A stretch of DNA of 64,000 nt from Dictyoglomus turgidum DSM 6724. Its GTDB lineage: Bacteria > Dictyoglomota > Dictyoglomia > Dictyoglomales > Dictyoglomaceae. Shown piece by piece: positions 51,373 through 58,654 of the stretch. The stretch covers positions 156,723-220,722 of the forward strand of contig NC_011661.1 in NCBI RefSeq assembly GCF_000021645.1, written 5' to 3'. A program made the translations under genes and the position numbers. Position 1 is the stretch's first letter, and each line of letters begins with the position of its first letter. The notes below the pieces were generated by a model. The model was not told where the DNA came from. It ran no database searches and saw nothing but the letters and a program-made list of their open reading frames with translations.

Positions 51373-52815
51373 ATGAAGAAAGAATTCTGGTGGCTTAAAT
51401 ACCCTACTTTAATACTCTTAAAAGAAATTCAAAAGGTTAACAAAAATATGGACAAATCTATTGAAAACTTAAAAGATTATATTTATGAAATTTTGGTTCA
51501 AGAATTTAAAGAGCATAATTGTGAGGTAATCCTGTGGAAAAAAGAGCAAGATAAGAAAGTAAAAAACAATTATGCGATAATAATAAATCCAGTGTTTTTA
51601 GGAAAATTAGATTCTAAGATAGAAGAGGTATTAAAAAACAACAAGCTTCCTGAAGATAATGAAATCCTAAAAGAATCCCTTCCAGAAGTAAATCCTCCCT
51701 TTGCTATTAGTATTGGAAGGAAGGTATGCAAAAATTTAGAGATATACCCTGAACTTCATCCCAATTTTATTAATCTTGTATTTATTGAGGACAATATAAA
51801 TATCCATAGTCTATCTTCAAATACAAAAGTTCAACTTATAAGATTTCTCATGGCAAAATTAGGAGCTTTTAAAAATATTATTGTTCCATATAAAGGGGAA
51901 AATATATCTGAGAATAAAGTTATATTAGGAACCTTAGAGGGAGGACATCCATCCTTAAGGATAGAAGATCTGGCAAAAAGACTTATGGTTTTTGGATCTT
52001 GTAAAGAAGTAGGGGGTTATGAGGAAATAGATTGGGAAATAAAGGAAGATGTATGGAAAAAATCTAAAATTGTAAATAGCATGATAAATCTTGGTAAATT
52101 TCTGGGTGAAAAGAAATTACTTTCTGAACCTGTAGAAATAAGAAATTTAGTAAAAGATGAAAATCTTGCAAAACTCATCGTTAGGCTTGTGAATTATTCA
52201 AGACAAGCAGAAGGAGCCTTTATGGCTTTTGAGCCCGAAATAAAACCTCCTAAAGAGTTAAACTTCATGAATGGGATATTTATAGTCACCTGCTCTGGAA
52301 AATACGGTACAGTAAAAAGTAACTTATCCTATAAAGATTTAGCACCTATCATTCCCTTAAAAAACGGTAAGGTTGGAGTATTTAAAAAAGAAAAGGAAGA
52401 AACCATTGGTCCATCTGTAGAAGCAGAGGAATTTACTCTGCCCCTTTTGGAGATGAAAGAAAAACTTGATTACCTACCCATAATAGGAGTGGTTCATTTA
52501 CATAGAGGATATAAGATTTTAAATCCTTCCTCAAAATTTTTTTATATACCTATAGATATAAGAGAGTATCCTCCTGTGGGATGTGGTGTAGATCTCATGC
52601 AAGAAATGAGTAAGTATGCCATGAAAAAAGCAGTGGAAATCTGGGAAGAAAGAAAAAAATTACCTTATTTTGCCCTCTTTTATGTACCTAATCATGGAAC
52701 AAATATATTTATTTTTCCTAAGGACAACTTCAATATTTATGAAGATCCTTTTTACTACTTTAAAGAAAGTGTGGATTTAAAGGAACTCATTTTCACAGAT
52801 GTTCCTCAGGTGTAG
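51373..52815 (+). CDS. Unrecognised conserved-looking 480-residue protein
   Basis: I do not recognise this gene. It is a 480-residue soluble protein with no signal peptide or membrane segment and a good GGGAGG ribosome site. The codon use is the same as in its neighbours. Points that look like active-site motifs are LGTLEGGHPSLRIEDLAKRL near residue 185, VVHLHRGYKILNPSSK near 375, PVGCGVDLMQEMSKYAMKK near 400 and FYVPNHGTNIFIFP near 440: several His with neighbouring Gly in turn-like contexts. A metal-dependent hydrolase or peptidase is one guess. Transcription is divergent from icd; a long run of low complexity A/T follows its stop. Confidence 0.5.
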   Translation: MKKEFWWLKYPTLILLKEIQKVNKNMDKSIENLKDYIYEILVQEFKEHNCEVILWKKEQDKKVKNNYAIIINPVFLGKLDSKIEEVLKNNKLPEDNEILKESLPEVNPPFAISIGRKVCKNLEIYPELHPNFINLVFIEDNINIHSLSSNTKVQLIRFLMAKLGAFKNIIVPYKGENISENKVILGTLEGGHPSLRIEDLAKRLMVFGSCKEVGGYEEIDWEIKEDVWKKSKIVNSMINLGKFLGEKKLLSEPVEIRNLVKDENLAKLIVRLVNYSRQAEGAFMAFEPEIKPPKELNFMNGIFIVTCSGKYGTVKSNLSYKDLAPIIPLKNGKVGVFKKEKEETIGPSVEAEEFTLPLLEMKEKLDYLPIIGVVHLHRGYKILNPSSKFFYIPIDIREYPPVGCGVDLMQEMSKYAMKKAVEIWEERKKLPYFALFYVPNHGTNIFIFPKDNFNIYEDPFYYFKESVDLKELIFTDVPQV

Positions 52816-52885
52816 CCAATATTTTAATAATTTTTTGCATAAAGTTATTAAAAAATTTTAATAATTTCAAAATGAAATTACCCCC

Positions 52886-52914
52886 TTTACAAAATTGTTT
52901 CCTTATGATATTAT
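52886..52914 (+). promoter_or_regulatory. Promoter of the oligosaccharide-transport operon
   Basis: TTTACA (52886-52891), a 17-base spacer and TATTAT (52909-52914) place the transcription start near 52921, only about seven bases before the 5' stem-loop described next. Confidence 0.7.
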
Positions 52915-52927
52915 TTTTTACACGAAA

Positions 52928-52945
52928 GGACCTGGAGCATGGTCC
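52928..52945 (+). promoter_or_regulatory. 5' UTR stem-loop with a loop complementary to a 3' stem-loop
   Basis: GGACC pairs with GGTCC around the eight-base loop TGGAGCAT, at the very 5' end of the predicted message. The loop is fully complementary (seven Watson-Crick pairs and one G-U) to the loop of the hairpin at 54830-54848 after the same gene. Confidence 0.65.
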
Positions 52946-52980
52946 AGATATAAATTTACCCCAAAATAGGAGGTGTAAAA

Positions 52981-54810
52981 ATGAGGGGTAAAGTTTTAGG
53001 GGTGTTTTTAACAGTTTTACTTTTGACCCTTCTACTTGTACCTTCCACATTAGGTCAGGTTTCTTTACCACGTAATGAAACAGTTTATACCGTTGGAGCA
53101 CTTTGGTCTGCAACCACCTACAGTTTATATGCACCTTCTTCCACCTATGGTACTGAGCATTTCTTGTACATGCCACTTTTCATCTACAGCAATATGAAAG
53201 ATGGATGGCTACCAGTACTTGCCGAATCCTTCACAGCAGTGAATAAGAGAACACTAAGAGTAAAAATCAGAGATATTGCAAAATGGAGCGATGGTACTCC
53301 AATTACTGCTGATGATGTAGTGTTCACCTTCAACTGCACAAAAGAGGTAGGATTTGGACCTGGTAATGGATGGTGGGATTACATCCAAACAGTAAGAGCA
53401 GTAGACAATAAGACAGTAGAATTTGTAATGAGACCAGATGCACAAAACTATGCCTCTTTCTTAGGATATGCCTTCACTACAAGGATTGTTCCAAAACATG
53501 TTTATGAGCCTCTATTAAAGCAAGGCGTACAAGCAGTAAAAGATTTCCAGAACAATGATCCTGCAAAACAGGTAGTTTCTGGACCATATAAACTCTACTA
53601 CACAGATCCCAACATTGTAGTATATGGAAGAATTGATGATTGGTGGGGCAAAGCAGTATTTGGGCTTCCTGTTCCTAAATACATTGCTAATGTAATTTAT
53701 AGAGATAATGCTGTAGCAAACTTAGACTTTGAGAAAGGAAATGCTGACTGGGCAGGAGTCTTTATACCCGATGTAAGTTCCCTCTGGACTCAGAAGAAGC
53801 TCCCCATTGGAACTTGGTTCAAGAACAAACCATACTACATGCCAGATGGTCTTGATCTTCTCTACATCAGCTACTACAATCCATTACTCAAGGATCCTGC
53901 AGTGAGAAAAGCTATAGCTTATGCAATACCATATAAAGAGATGCTTGATAAAGCATACTTTGGCTATGGTAACCAAGCTCATCCATCAATGGTAATAGAC
54001 GACTTTGAAGCATACAGAGAATACATTGATCAAGCTTATGCAAAATATGTATGGGGTTCTCCCGATGGAAAACCTAAGACAGATCTTAAGAAAGCAAATG
54101 AAATACTTGACAAGGCTGGATATAAGAGAGGAAAAGATGGTATAAGAATCAGTCCAGATGGAAAGAGAATGGGTACTTTCACTATTCAAGTTCCAAATGG
54201 ATGGACCGACTGGATGATGATGTGTGAAATGATGGCAGCAAACATGAGAGAAATTGGGCTCGACGTAAAGACCGAATTCCCAGACTTCTCTGTATGGTGG
54301 ACCAGATGGACTCAAGGAACCTTTGACTTCATCCTTGGATGGTCTGCAGGCCCTGGTTTTGATCATCCATGGAACGTCTACAGATTAGTATTAGATCCAG
54401 CCCTTTACAAACCATTTGGTCAAGATCAGTATGGTAACTTTGAAAGATATAACAATCCAGAGGTTGGCAAACTCTTAGATAAGATTGCTGCAACCCTTGA
54501 TCCAAAGGTCAAGAAGACATTATTCTATCAATTACAAAGAATAATCTACAGAGATCTCCCAGCAATTCCACTCTTCTATGGAGCTCACTGGTATGAATAC
54601 AACGAAACTGTATGGACTGGATGGCCCAACGAAAGCAGACCATGGTGGTACCCAGCTGCTCCTTGGAGCAACATGGCACTACCAATACTCTTTGGCATAG
54701 CTCCAAAAGGACAAACACCTAAGGTGCCAGCTTGGGTAGAGTTCAAAGCAAAAGGCGGTCTCCTTATACCAACCAACGACGTCCTCAATGCATTAGCAAA
54801 GGCAAAATAA
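52981..54810 (+). CDS. Family 5 solute-binding protein (oligosaccharide/peptide)
   Basis: A 609-residue secreted binding protein of the OppA/DppA kind. The signal peptide ends near STLGQ at residue 26. Family features include DGWLPVLAESFTAVNKRTLRVKIRD, WSDGTPITADDVVFTF near residue 105 and the repeated helix-strand motifs to the end. It is the first gene of an Opp-type ABC operon that ends in a GH3 beta-glucosidase; in Thermotoga-like thermophiles this group often imports beta-glucan or xylo-oligosaccharides instead of peptides, so the substrate is probably a sugar. Hairpins before and after it have complementary loops, and a strong terminator lies between it and the permease. Confidence 0.88.
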   Translation: MRGKVLGVFLTVLLLTLLLVPSTLGQVSLPRNETVYTVGALWSATTYSLYAPSSTYGTEHFLYMPLFIYSNMKDGWLPVLAESFTAVNKRTLRVKIRDIAKWSDGTPITADDVVFTFNCTKEVGFGPGNGWWDYIQTVRAVDNKTVEFVMRPDAQNYASFLGYAFTTRIVPKHVYEPLLKQGVQAVKDFQNNDPAKQVVSGPYKLYYTDPNIVVYGRIDDWWGKAVFGLPVPKYIANVIYRDNAVANLDFEKGNADWAGVFIPDVSSLWTQKKLPIGTWFKNKPYYMPDGLDLLYISYYNPLLKDPAVRKAIAYAIPYKEMLDKAYFGYGNQAHPSMVIDDFEAYREYIDQAYAKYVWGSPDGKPKTDLKKANEILDKAGYKRGKDGIRISPDGKRMGTFTIQVPNGWTDWMMMCEMMAANMREIGLDVKTEFPDFSVWWTRWTQGTFDFILGWSAGPGFDHPWNVYRLVLDPALYKPFGQDQYGNFERYNNPEVGKLLDKIAATLDPKVKKTLFYQLQRIIYRDLPAIPLFYGAHWYEYNETVWTGWPNESRPWWYPAAPWSNMALPILFGIAPKGQTPKVPAWVEFKAKGGLLIPTNDVLNALAKAK

Positions 54811-54829
54811 ATTTAAAGGAGAACTTTAT

Positions 54830-54848
54830 GGGCCATGCTCTAAGGTCC
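54830..54848 (+). promoter_or_regulatory. 3' stem-loop, complementary to the 5' UTR stem-loop
   Basis: GGGCC pairs with GGTCC (one G-U pair) around ATGCTCTAA, 20 bases after the binding-protein stop codon. Its loop complements the TGGAGCAT loop of the hairpin at 52928-52945; taken whole, the two sequences are an 18-base imperfect inverted repeat flanking the gene. Confidence 0.6.
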
Positions 54849-54868
54849 TAACCGAGAATCAGAATATA

Positions 54869-54900
54869 AACCCCCCGGAAAAATCCGGGGGGTTATTTAG
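54869..54900 (+). terminator. Terminator-like hairpin between binding protein and permease
   Basis: AACCCCCCGGA and TCCGGGGGGTT form a perfect 11-bp stem with an AAAA loop, followed by ATTTAGTTA. It should cause strong but probably partial termination, allowing reduced read-through to the permeases, or may protect the binding-protein mRNA. Confidence 0.85.
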
Positions 54901-54938
54901 TTAAAATATAAAGCAAGATAAAGGAGGCTTAAGAGTAA

Positions 54939-55970
54939 ATGCCGAAAACAGCTATGAAACCTTTTTTAAAGTACATAGGACGAAGGCTCTTCTTCCTAAT
55001 ACTCACATACTTTGTGGCAATTACCATAATATTTATCTTGCCAAGAGCCATTCCAGGAAATCCATTAGCGGTTATCCTCCAGCGTATAGCAGTACAGGGA
55101 GCAAGTAATCCAGAGACCATGTCAAATGTACAAAAAACTATGATGGAAGAATTTGGTTTTAACAAACCCATTCATATTCAATATCTAAATTTTTTAGGAC
55201 GTCTTTTTAAGGGAGATCTAGGAACGTCTATTCACTATTATCCTAAAAAGTGTATTGATGTCTTAGCTCCCTTTATTCCATGGACCTTATTTTTATTAAT
55301 ACCCGCCACATTAACCGCTTGGATTATTGGGAATACCCTTGGTGCTATTGCTGGAAACAAGAGAGGAACCTGGATTGACAATATTGTGCTTAATTCTTCC
55401 CTTGTTATAAGTCAAATTCCTTATTACTGGTTAGGAATGCTCTTAATTTATACCCTTGCTGTTAAGCTAAAGATTTTCCCCAATCAAGGGGGATACTCTC
55501 AAGGACTAATACCAAATCTTTCTCTAACTTTTATCTTAGATGTGCTTTATCATTACATTCTCCCCTTTCTTTCCATAGTGATTGCAGCTATTGGGGGCTG
55601 GGCGATTGGAACAAGACTTTTGGTTATATACGAATTAGATGCGGATTATACGGTGTTTGCAGTAAATTTAGGAATGAGGGATAACACTGTATTCAAATAT
55701 GTCTTTAGAAATATATTACTACCTCAAATTACTGGTTTAGCTCTAAATTTAGGATCTGCTCTTGGTGGTGCCCTGATAACTGAACTTATTTTTAACTATC
55801 CCGGAACAGGATATATCCTTTTTAGAGCATTAAGTACCCTTGATTACACGTTAATTCAAGCGATTTTTGTAATCTTAATTGTAGCTATATACTTGGCTAA
55901 CTTTATTGTGGACTTTGTGTATGCCATTGTGGATCCAAGAATAAGATTAGGACAAGGAGAGGGAAGCTAA
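54939..55970 (+). CDS. Opp/Dpp-type ABC permease (DppB-like)
   Basis: A 343-residue permease with six membrane helices, the first at residues 13-35. The conserved lead RAIPGNPLAVILQRIA, the short helical periplasmic part and the EAA-type loop (VYELDADYTVFAVNLGMRDNTVFKYVF) match DppB/OppB. GGAGG lies before the ATG with about 12 bases between, a slightly long spacing. It is followed after one base by its DppC-like partner. Together they form the membrane channel of the oligosaccharide importer. Confidence 0.88.
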   Translation: MPKTAMKPFLKYIGRRLFFLILTYFVAITIIFILPRAIPGNPLAVILQRIAVQGASNPETMSNVQKTMMEEFGFNKPIHIQYLNFLGRLFKGDLGTSIHYYPKKCIDVLAPFIPWTLFLLIPATLTAWIIGNTLGAIAGNKRGTWIDNIVLNSSLVISQIPYYWLGMLLIYTLAVKLKIFPNQGGYSQGLIPNLSLTFILDVLYHYILPFLSIVIAAIGGWAIGTRLLVIYELDADYTVFAVNLGMRDNTVFKYVFRNILLPQITGLALNLGSALGGALITELIFNYPGTGYILFRALSTLDYTLIQAIFVILIVAIYLANFIVDFVYAIVDPRIRLGQGEGS

Positions 55971-55971
55971 A

Positions 55972-56814
55972 ATGTGGAAACAAATGATAAGACCATTATT
56001 TAAAAGTCCAAAATTTATTGTGGGAGCGACTATTTTCTTATTAATTGTTTTAATGGCTATATTAGGTCCAATTGTTTACCCAAAAGATCCAACATCCTTT
56101 GCAGGAATACCAGAACAACCTCCAAGTAAGCAGTACCCCTTAGGAACCGATACCTATGGTGGAGATCTATTAGCAAAGGTTCTAAATGGAACTAGATCAT
56201 CCCTATACATAGGATTTTTAGTAGCTATAATTTCTATGAGTATAGGACTTCTTGTAGGAACATTCTCTGCTATTAAAGGCGGTATTATTGATGATATTTT
56301 AATGGGTTTAACAAATATAGTTTTAACAATACCAAGTATTCTCCTTGCTATTTTAATTGCAAGTTATTTAAACATAAGAAGTTTAGAAGTTATTGCTGTC
56401 ATACTGGGAATACTCTCTTGGCCTTGGTTTGCAAGAGCCATACGTGCCCAACTTATGAGTTTAATAAATAGAGAGTATGTCTATCTCTCAAGACTTGCAG
56501 GGTATGGAGACTTTAGACTCGCAATAGAGGATTTGATTCCTGCAATTGCAACCTATACCTTTATGGCATTTATTCTCTTTATCAATGGTGGGATTTTGGG
56601 AGAAGCAGGATTAAGCCTTATTGGATTAGGTCCTACAAAGGGAGTAACCCTTGGTATAGTTCTCCAATGGGCTGTCCTAATGGAAGCAATAAGGAGAGGA
56701 CTTTGGTGGTGGTTTATCCCACCAGGAGTTATCATAGTTGCTCTCACTTCCTCTCTTCTAATCATTACCACAGCAATGGATGAAGTATTCAATCCAAAAC
56801 TGAGAGAGAGGTGA
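55972..56814 (+). CDS. Opp/Dpp-type ABC permease (DppC-like)
   Basis: A 280-residue permease with six predicted membrane helices. It has the DppC N-terminal signature PLGTDTYGGDLLAKVLNGTR near residue 57 and the EAA loop RLAGYGDFRLAIEDLIPAIATY. The short C terminus NPKLRER follows LTSSLLIITTAMDEV, as in other DppC proteins. It begins one base after the DppB-like gene and precedes the ATPases by seven bases. Confidence 0.9.
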   Translation: MWKQMIRPLFKSPKFIVGATIFLLIVLMAILGPIVYPKDPTSFAGIPEQPPSKQYPLGTDTYGGDLLAKVLNGTRSSLYIGFLVAIISMSIGLLVGTFSAIKGGIIDDILMGLTNIVLTIPSILLAILIASYLNIRSLEVIAVILGILSWPWFARAIRAQLMSLINREYVYLSRLAGYGDFRLAIEDLIPAIATYTFMAFILFINGGILGEAGLSLIGLGPTKGVTLGIVLQWAVLMEAIRRGLWWWFIPPGVIIVALTSSLLIITTAMDEVFNPKLRER

Positions 56815-56821
56815 TAAAAAT

Positions 56822-57817
56822 ATGAAAGGCACTTTAATAATCAATTTAGACAATGTAAAAGCCTATTATGCAAGAGGAGATACCTATGTAAAAGCGGTAG
56901 ATGGGGTCACATTAAACGTATATAAAGGGGAAGTGGTGGGCATTGTAGGGGAAAGTGGTTCTGGAAAATCCACCCTTTCTAATGTTATGATCATGAACAT
57001 AAAAAAACCATTAACTTTTATTGATGGAAAAGTCACCTTAAATGCAGGAGCAGATTTCTTAGAGCTAAACAAAATGCCAAGACAAGAACTTCAAAAAATC
57101 GTCTGGGGAAGAGAGACCTCCATAGTTCCCCAAGCTGCAATGAATGCCCTTATGCCAACTAAAAAGATAAGAGATTTTATATCGGACTTAGTTAAAGACC
57201 ATTTTGAAAGAGCCCTTAACGAGGAGGAGATTGTAGAAAGAGCAAAACAAAGATTTACCGATGTAGGAATAAGCCCTAATGACATATATAGATACCCCTT
57301 TGAGCTTTCGGGGGGAATGAGACAGAGAGCAGTAATAGCCATTGCAACATTACTAAACCCAAGACTTTTAATATGTGACGAGCCTACTTCAGCCTTAGAT
57401 GTGGCAAACCAAAAACTGGTTCTAAAAACATTGGAACAATTAAGAAAAAGAGAAATTGTAGAATCCATTGTCTTTATTACCCATGATATTGCCACGGTAA
57501 GACAGATTGCCACAAGAATGGTAGTTATGTATGCTGGAAAAATTGTTGAAAATAGCTCAGTAGATGATATCATAAAAGATCCATTACATCCCTACACAAA
57601 AGGATTACTACTTTCGGTAGTAACTCCTGAGCCTGAAGTAAAAAAACGTGGAATATCGTATATTCCTGGAACACCACCAGACCTTGCCAATCCTCCTCAT
57701 GGATGTAGATTCCATACCAGATGTCCATATAAGATGCCTATTTGTGAAGAGCAGGAACCTGCTCTTAAGAAGATAGATACCAATAGAGAAGTAGCATGTT
57801 TCTTATTTAATAAATGA
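56822..57817 (+). CDS. Opp/Dpp-type ABC ATPase (DppD-like) with Cys-rich C terminus
   Basis: A 331-residue ATP-hydrolysing subunit. Walker A is GIVGESGSGKSTLSNV near residue 40; the ABC signature is LSGGMRQRAVIAIATLL; Walker B LLICDEPTSALD and the switch His (FITHDIATV) follow. The C-terminal oligopeptide extension ends with a four-cysteine pattern, GCRFHTRCPYKMPICEEQ...VACFLF, a motif that in one DppD holds an iron-sulfur cluster (family knowledge). It is followed 12 bases later by the second ATPase, which lacks this extension. Confidence 0.92.
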   Translation: MKGTLIINLDNVKAYYARGDTYVKAVDGVTLNVYKGEVVGIVGESGSGKSTLSNVMIMNIKKPLTFIDGKVTLNAGADFLELNKMPRQELQKIVWGRETSIVPQAAMNALMPTKKIRDFISDLVKDHFERALNEEEIVERAKQRFTDVGISPNDIYRYPFELSGGMRQRAVIAIATLLNPRLLICDEPTSALDVANQKLVLKTLEQLRKREIVESIVFITHDIATVRQIATRMVVMYAGKIVENSSVDDIIKDPLHPYTKGLLLSVVTPEPEVKKRGISYIPGTPPDLANPPHGCRFHTRCPYKMPICEEQEPALKKIDTNREVACFLFNK

Positions 57818-57829
57818 GGTGAGAAAAAG

Positions 57830-58654
57830 ATGGCACTTTTAGAGGTCAAAAACTTAAACAAAATATATGAAGTTGGTTTATTTGTAAGAAGACAAATTCA
57901 CGCTGTAAAAAGTATAAACTTCTCTGTAGAAAGGGGAGAAATTGTATCCCTTGTAGGAGAAAGTGGTTCTGGAAAAACTACCACTGCTAAAATGATACTA
58001 AGACTTGAAAAACCAACATCAGGAGACATTATTGTAGAAGGTATAAACGTATGGAAAGACATAAAAACAGTAGAAGATAAGAAAAATTACTACAGAAAAG
58101 TACACGCAGTATTCCAAGATCCCTTTGCAAGTTATAATCAATTTTATCCCATTGATAGAATACTACACCAAGCTTTAAGACTTATAGACGTAGATCCTAA
58201 CAATCCAAAATCAAAAGAACTAATTGAAGAAGCCTTAATCCATGTAGGATTAGAACCTAAAAATATCCTTGGAAAATATCCCCATCAACTTTCCGGTGGA
58301 GAAAAACAGAGAATAATGATTGCAAGATGTTGGCTCTTAAAACCATCTCTAATCATAGCAGACGAGCCTGTATCTATGATAGATGCATCCACTCGTGGTG
58401 GTATAATAAAACTATTTGAAAATCTAAGAGATGAGACAGGAACTTCCATTATATTCATCACCCACGATATGGGACTTGCCTACTATATTTCAAACAGAAT
58501 ATTCATAATGTATAAAGGAGAAATTGTAGAAGAAGGAACTCCTGATGATATAATATCTAATCCTAAACACGATTACACAAAAAATCTCATTGGAAGTATT
58601 CCAACCCTCTACAAAAAATGGGAAGATATTGGAGAACTTGAAACAAGAGTATAA
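57830..58654 (+). CDS. Opp/Dpp-type ABC ATPase (DppF-like)
   Basis: A 274-residue second ATPase subunit. Walker A is SLVGESGSGKTTTAKMIL near residue 43, the signature loop YPHQLSGGEKQRIMIARC, Walker B SLIIADEPVSMIDAS and the H-loop FITHDMGLAYY. The chain ends at ELETRV, without the C-terminal oligo-peptide/Cys extension common in OppF, so only its DppD-like partner carries that domain. A strong terminator follows, then the GH3 gene. Confidence 0.92.
   Translation: MALLEVKNLNKIYEVGLFVRRQIHAVKSINFSVERGEIVSLVGESGSGKTTTAKMILRLEKPTSGDIIVEGINVWKDIKTVEDKKNYYRKVHAVFQDPFASYNQFYPIDRILHQALRLIDVDPNNPKSKELIEEALIHVGLEPKNILGKYPHQLSGGEKQRIMIARCWLLKPSLIIADEPVSMIDASTRGGIIKLFENLRDETGTSIIFITHDMGLAYYISNRIFIMYKGEIVEEGTPDDIISNPKHDYTKNLIGSIPTLYKKWEDIGELETRV

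Follow-up and report, generated by a model that had tools for sequence, protein, structure and literature searches.

A conserved long-range RNA duplex proposed at the binding-protein/permease boundary of an ABC transporter operon in Dictyoglomus and its sister genus

The locus was read in Dictyoglomus turgidum DSM 6724 (NC_011661.1), the genome of which is a single contig of 1,855,560 bases; the window, that is, the whole stretch of DNA that was analyzed, comprises 64,000 nucleotides, and coordinates refer to it unless another locus is named. The operon under study encodes an oligopeptide/oligosaccharide-type ABC transporter composed of a binding protein, two permeases, and two ATPases, and a gene for a family 3 glycoside hydrolase comes after it. 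Its parts are arranged as follows:

52886–52914, + strand: predicted promoter, TTTACA-17-TATTAT with a TG upstream of the −10 element (10 of 12 consensus positions)
52927–52946, + strand: 5′ arm of the proposed long-range duplex, holding a GGACC/GGTCC hairpin at 52928–52945
52981–54810, + strand: gene for a solute-binding protein of 609 amino acids (SBP_bac_5, Pfam PF00496, E 5.8e-67)
54828–54851, + strand: putative mini-ORF of 7 codons, ATG GGC CAT GCT CTA AGG TCC TAA (MGHALRS), with AAAGGAG upstream
54829–54849, + strand: 3′ arm of the proposed duplex, pairing with 52927–52946 (two G-U pairs, one bulged A)
54869–54894, + strand: intrinsic terminator-like hairpin of 11 pairs, 19 nt past the duplex
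54939–55970, + strand: first permease gene (BPD_transp_1), N-terminus MPKTAMKPF
55972–58654, + strand: second permease and two ATPases, the rest of the operon

The promoter block is conserved in all seven Dictyoglomota genomes compared, and from its position we infer that the mRNA starts near 52920–52922. Because the promoter-like TTTACA-17-TATTAT ends at 52914, only about 6–8 nt are predicted to separate the mRNA 5′ end from the 5′ arm. Both arms together enclose the binding-protein gene (stop codon 54808–54810), whose own Shine–Dalgarno (SD) sequence, AGGAGGTG near 52970, is located downstream of the 5′ arm and outside the duplex. The terminator-like hairpin occurs in each of the three Dictyoglomus genomes whose 3′ side can be read and is absent from the sister genus. 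The genes upstream of the operon differ between both genera, while promoter, leader, and operon are kept together. In D. turgidum, the upstream neighbor codes for 480 amino acids (window 51373–52815) and has no Pfam match at E 0.001; a homologue occupies the equivalent place in a D. thermophilum-like genome (L051 3668–5131).

The first-pass annotation of this DNA had described a hairpin on either side of the binding-protein gene, and both hairpin-forming elements are indeed present: GGACC-TGGAGCAT-GGTCC at 52928–52945 and GGGCC-ATGCTCTAA-GGTCC at 54830–54848, 19 bases past the stop codon. It had also counted eight base pairs between the two loops. This complementarity is confirmed but longer than was thought, as it extends beyond the loops over the full arms listed above, interrupted by a single bulged base. 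Scanning the leader of each gene against the 60 nt after its stop codon for 405 genes in 464 kb of D. turgidum (the window and a further 400 kb), we obtained the strongest duplex at this locus, with −38.4 kcal/mol compared to a mean of −17.3 (sd 5.2); a second clear leader/post-stop duplex was not found among these genes. The next-best genes, which resemble palindromic terminators, come close to this value (−37.4 and −36.2 kcal/mol), so that the case from the single genome is suggestive only and not conclusive. The element occurs only at this locus, and a genome search returned no further copy belonging to a candidate regulon; the sole near-match (G000:C1:1041087) lies on the minus strand and does not coincide with an evident gene start. 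An Rfam search of 52700–55000 gave nothing near gathering score, even with E up to 10.

All seven Dictyoglomota genomes carry the binding-protein gene, and six of them, from two closely related genera (Dictyoglomus and its sister genus), have both flanks readable and both arms known. The leader arm and the downstream arm read GGACCTGGAGCATGGTCC and GGGCCATGCTCTAAGGTCC in the D. turgidum-like genome, GGACCTGGAGCATGGTCC and GGACCATGCTCTAAGGTCC in the D. thermophilum-like genome, GGACCAAGAGCGTGGTCC and GGACCACGCTCTTGGTCTC in G003, AAGGGTTTAGTGCATGGTCC and GGACCATGCACTAAATCCTT in G004, and AAGGATTTAGTGTATGGTCC and GGACCATACACTAAATCCTT in G005 and G006; in G001 the leader arm is GGACCTTAGAGCATGGTCC and the contig ends before the other arm. 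In the sister-genus genomes G005 and G006 the arms are exactly complementary over 21 nt, for which our own arithmetic gives a chance expectation in the order of 1e-7 for the stretches compared. Covariation in sister species had been set beforehand as the test on which the idea should stand or fall, and the arms do covary: Changes on both sides are found in 7 of 20 pairs (12 cells), as opposed to 3.4 ± 1.2 in shuffles, 0 of 500 of which reach the observed number, and to just 1–2 pairs in controls with one arm slid. Likewise, 95% of the alignment cells of the six genomes are paired, compared to 24–50% when one arm is slid by 1–3 columns. The one-sided substitutions within the helix are equally regular. 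Five such events were inferred (the sister-genus alignment is ungapped), two in D. turgidum (one of them common to D. thermophilum), two in G003, and one in G004, and all five leave a G-U pair on + strand RNA; according to our own arithmetic, the chance of this outcome is 1/32 for five independent transitions and lower with transversions. No mismatch occurs within the helix, and the only other departure is the one bulged base common to turgidum- and thermophilum-like genomes. Compensatory changes on several pairs, combined with one-sided differences that are G-U-compatible on the transcribed strand, are what is expected of a conserved RNA helix. Since all one-sided substitutions are G-U on the mRNA strand, the pattern is better explained by RNA pairing on the + strand than by repeats in the DNA or by sites for a protein. 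We consider it very probable that the two arms pair with each other as a long-range RNA duplex; the comparative evidence supports this pairing well, and its effect, to which we return below, we infer.

The thermodynamics of the arms further specify which structure is conserved. Cognate arms form duplexes of −38 to −44 kcal/mol, whereas arms paired across genera reach just −17 to −33 kcal/mol. At 75 °C, which is near the growth temperature of these organisms, the duplex retains −15 to −19 kcal/mol and the isolated hairpins 0 to −2.3 kcal/mol. Only Dictyoglomus retains the GGACC/GGUCC stem. The single-arm hairpins of the sister genus amount to −4.5 (5′ arm) and −2.3 kcal/mol (3′ arm) at 37 °C and to 0.0 for both at 75 °C, and the full 21-bp complementarity is perfect despite these unstable hairpins. 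The conserved unit is the full duplex rather than the hairpins. The suggestion that kissing loops close the message has to be divided accordingly: An end-to-end interaction closing a loop is borne out by the covariation, but kissing hairpins as the conserved unit are rejected, since their stems are missing or worth about 0 kcal/mol in the sister genus and no genome has more than weak ones at 75 °C. In partition functions computed at 75 °C for transcripts of ~2 kb from five genomes, the mean pairing probability of the arms is 0.95–0.98; by the same kind of measure, 21 of 22 control genes lie at 0.07–0.36 and one (dnaX) at 0.79, and a reversed 3′ arm yields 0.34. Because the folding model contains no ribosomes and underestimates the cost of a 1.9-kb loop, these values speak for the feasibility of the duplex and not for its occurrence in cells. 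At the dnaX locus (L063 3522–5243, G000:C1), a coding stretch just before dnaX is predicted to pair with the start of the gene that follows dnaX over 17 bp and across ~1.6 kb; this pairing between coding stretches is taken as chance.

A point absent from the first-pass annotation is that the 3′ arm overlaps a translation start and is coding in both genera. In all six genomes with both arms, the 3′ arm follows an SD sequence and an ATG. In the sister genus it reads ATG-(A/C)GG-GAC-CAT-RCA-CTA-AAT-CCT and lies inside codons 2–9 of the first permease gene, the N-terminus of which is MRDHTLNPF or MRDHALNPF; this permease start is located ~20–30 nt past the binding-protein stop codon, with no terminator between. 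In Dictyoglomus the permease begins farther downstream, and the arm appears to constitute a separate mini-ORF with its own SD sequence. The putative peptides are MGHALRS in D. turgidum and MDHALRS and MDHALGL in two Dictyoglomus relatives, all of them 7 codons long and followed by TAA. Several arm changes are silent in the mini-ORF frame (CAT/CAC, CTA/CTT, GCT/GCA), and the leader changed along with them; moreover, an indel within the arm of G003 is balanced, leaving the length of the mini-ORF unchanged. Put most simply, and as read from the sequence, the mRNA would begin with an antisense copy, ~25 bases in length, of a second translation start that follows almost 2,000 bases further on.

Our interpretation starts from the observed complementarity, the covariation, the G-U pairs on the mRNA strand, the feasibility of the duplex at 75 °C, and the overlap with a translation start in both genera; we presume where the transcript begins and ends, that the duplex forms in cells, that the mini-ORF is translated, and that effects (a) and (b) described here follow. 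The 5′ end of the operon mRNA would act as an antisense copy of the start after the binding-protein gene. Whenever ribosomes are not holding this site open, a duplex of ~20 bp would form across ~1.9 kb, thereby masking either the second start codon or the codons that immediately follow and tying the ends of the binding-protein cistron together. This would (a) repress initiation at the second reading frame, namely the permease in the sister genus and the mini-ORF before the terminator in Dictyoglomus, and (b) shield the message for the binding protein from exonucleases attacking at its 5′ and 3′ ends. Jointly, (a) and (b) would provide more binding protein than permease; in ABC transporter operons, the binding protein is required in excess over the membrane parts. 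In Dictyoglomus, with a terminator lying between arm and permease, the more direct effect would be to protect the ends of a monocistronic message, and the repression step would act just indirectly, as there the arm has ceased to overlap the start of the permease. The mini-ORF equals the duplex in length, and a ribosome translating it would presumably open the duplex. An RNase III gene is present in the three genomes tested and RNase J is encoded as well, while a gene search of these genomes did not detect Hfq. On balance, we favor a conserved cis-acting duplex at the binding-protein/permease boundary that combines repression with a clamp. More tentatively, and with somewhat less than even confidence, one may go further and regard the locus as a self-antisense operon: The first ~25 nt of the leader would be a built-in antisense against the start of the second cistron, ~1.9 kb away on the same molecule, leader and second-ORF codons would coevolve, and ribosome traffic from gene one across the second start (in Dictyoglomus, the 7-codon mini-ORF) would decide between the closed and the open state. 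If true, this would be a switch that sets the ratio of ABC transporter subunits at ~75 °C.

The main rival to this combined reading retains the clamp and discards the repression: The arms would form a closing stem comparable to those flanking precursor 16S rRNA, and cleavage of this stem by RNase III and/or a barrier to exonucleases would release and stabilize the binding-protein mRNA; the overlap with the start codon would be incidental. The 5′ arm close to the predicted 5′ end and the Dictyoglomus 3′ arm just before the terminator are ideally placed for end protection, the genes for RNase III and RNase J are available, and the 5′–3′ pairing of icaR mRNA is a substrate of RNase III (PMC3868564). 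A mere clamp, however, leaves unexplained why the arm stays on an SD sequence and ATG in both genera and why the 7-codon mini-ORF is kept in Dictyoglomus despite the internal indel, and we rate this rival as rather unlikely. Pairing in trans, in which a released short leader RNA or the 3′ arm would pair with another molecule of the operon mRNA, predicts the same covariation as pairing in cis, and an antisense to a translation start would hit the usual target of small RNAs. Yet the leader contains no + strand terminator or small-RNA boundary, Hfq was not detected in these genomes, and the search turned up no further near-match target where a gene begins; its chances are slim.

The remaining two explanations place the function, or the lack of it, at the level of DNA. 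A transcription factor might bind both sites as a pair of operators and loop the DNA, in which case the sites would track the specificity of the factor. The palindromic ends GGACC/GGTCC of the Dictyoglomus elements and the position of the 5′ element at about +6 to +26, which is classical for an operator, would suit this assumption. In the sister genus, however, the palindrome is lost and only the outer three bases per end match, the covarying positions include the center of the element, and the end spacing differs between two copies of one genome (8 vs. 9); furthermore, the one-sided substitutions are all G-U-compatible on one RNA strand, and no other genomic copy lies in a candidate regulon. 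We judge an operator pair to be a slight possibility, and the protein-binding site considered in the first-pass annotation, although possible, fits worse as a DNA site, with palindromic ends kept only in Dictyoglomus. Finally, the arms might be a functionless inverted repeat kept alike by recombination, template switching, or recent duplication, and possibly invertible, given that a repeat of ~20 bp does flank the gene. Inversion of the segment, which had also been raised, is not supported: The orientation of the gene relative to the permeases is identical in every assembled genome and no recombinase is nearby. Homogenization, in turn, would account neither for differences that are all G-U-compatible nor for an arm that stays on the start codon across genera, which makes a functionless repeat barely credible.

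The arrangement was not found in related operons. The proposal to seek paired elements at other Dictyoglomus binding-protein genes led to a negative answer, as the arrangement is absent from the paralogous operons, and in these genomes no other gene for a binding protein has a comparable leader/post-stop duplex; on these grounds we rejected the idea that binding-protein operons follow it as a general rule. A match of 17 nt between an SD sequence and a terminator arm at L041, which ranks higher by count, shrinks in relatives without compensating changes, and we read it as a chance match between a G-rich SD sequence and a terminator. For now, the arrangement counts as a feature of one locus in one family. 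Homologues of the binding protein with 55–56% identity are found on Thermotogaceae and Thermosipho MAG contigs (L035, L036), which suggests that the transporter was transferred between thermophiles; the duplex elements were not found in the Thermotogota homologue L035, where both flanks are readable, and L036 is without the 3′ side. The leaders of the family-5 binding proteins show further features of their own: Several of them (L040, L045, L039, L044, L047, L053, L055, L056) contain a second strong SD-like sequence (AAAGGAGGTGA or similar) ~75–100 nt upstream of the start codon and without an obvious reading frame, which we take to resemble the 'STAB-SD' mRNA stabilizers of Bacillus. The leader of one binding-protein gene (L041, L077, L078) carries a long, perfectly conserved operator-like palindrome, GCAAACGTTTATATTAGCGTTTGC, between promoter and SD sequence, and other binding-protein promoters have LacI-type sites (AAAGCGCTTACAC, AACGATTTCGTAA).

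Only few cases of functional end-to-end pairing in bacterial mRNA are known to us, mostly in short toxin mRNAs or single regulators. Here, comparative evidence from two genera argues for a duplex of ~20 bp spanning almost 2 kb in an ordinary metabolic operon of a thermophile, at the very place where transporter operons must separate the output of binding protein from that of permease. This suggests that further operons, too, may hold an antisense copy of the second start at the 5′ terminus of their mRNA, a pattern open to searches that match leaders against downstream start sites and then check for covariation. Temperature moreover distinguishes the duplex from the local hairpins, which makes the locus a clean system for asking whether very long-range pairing works in a translated mRNA. 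Our literature search, which is no proof of absence, brought up no paper on a leader that is antisense to the second start of its own operon, and nothing on RNA regulation in Dictyoglomus.

Among known systems, the processing stems of precursor 16S and 23S rRNA likewise consist of complementary flanks, 1.5–3 kb apart, that pair and enclose a gene; they belong to rRNA and involve no start codon, whereas the present duplex would lie in an mRNA and include one. In the icaR mRNA of Staphylococcus aureus, pairing of the 5′-UTR with the 3′-UTR covers the ribosome-binding site and creates a duplex open to RNase III (PMC3868564). Like icaR, the proposed duplex would join both termini of a bacterial message across a gene and cover a ribosome-binding site, but icaR employs a 7-nt UCCCCUG motif against the SD sequence of its own gene, while here the leader matches the beginning of the following reading frame in antisense over ~20 bp, within a polycistronic transporter operon and with covariation across two genera. 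In the hok and aapA3 toxin mRNAs, pairing of the 5′ and 3′ ends yields a closed, stable, and translationally inert message (PMC6733600). There, too, the transcript ends interact, but these are short toxin mRNAs under antitoxin RNA control in which the enclosed gene is silenced, whereas here its SD sequence remains outside the duplex. The coupling of MS2 coat and replicase relies on a long-distance pairing that hides a downstream start until translation of the upstream gene opens it (PMC9894550). Hiding the start of a downstream gene by distant pairing is shared with our locus, yet the MS2 partner lies inside the upstream coding region and ours at the extreme 5′ end of the mRNA; because this partner is outside any coding region, it is not displaced directly by ribosomes that translate the first gene. 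Since the ribosome-binding site of the enclosed gene is left uncovered and the covered start is that of the next reading frame, the long-range duplex is not of the icaR type by definition, though it would work like the icaR, hok/aapA3, and MS2 pairings, the nearest cases known. A precedent for differential mRNA decay is found between malE and malFG in E. coli, where an intercistronic stabilizer brings it about (PMC5927463): The place in the ABC transporter operon, between binding protein and permease, is the same, and so is the presumed end, an excess of binding protein, but malE uses a local 3′ hairpin, whereas the structure proposed here would be made with the 5′ end of the message itself.
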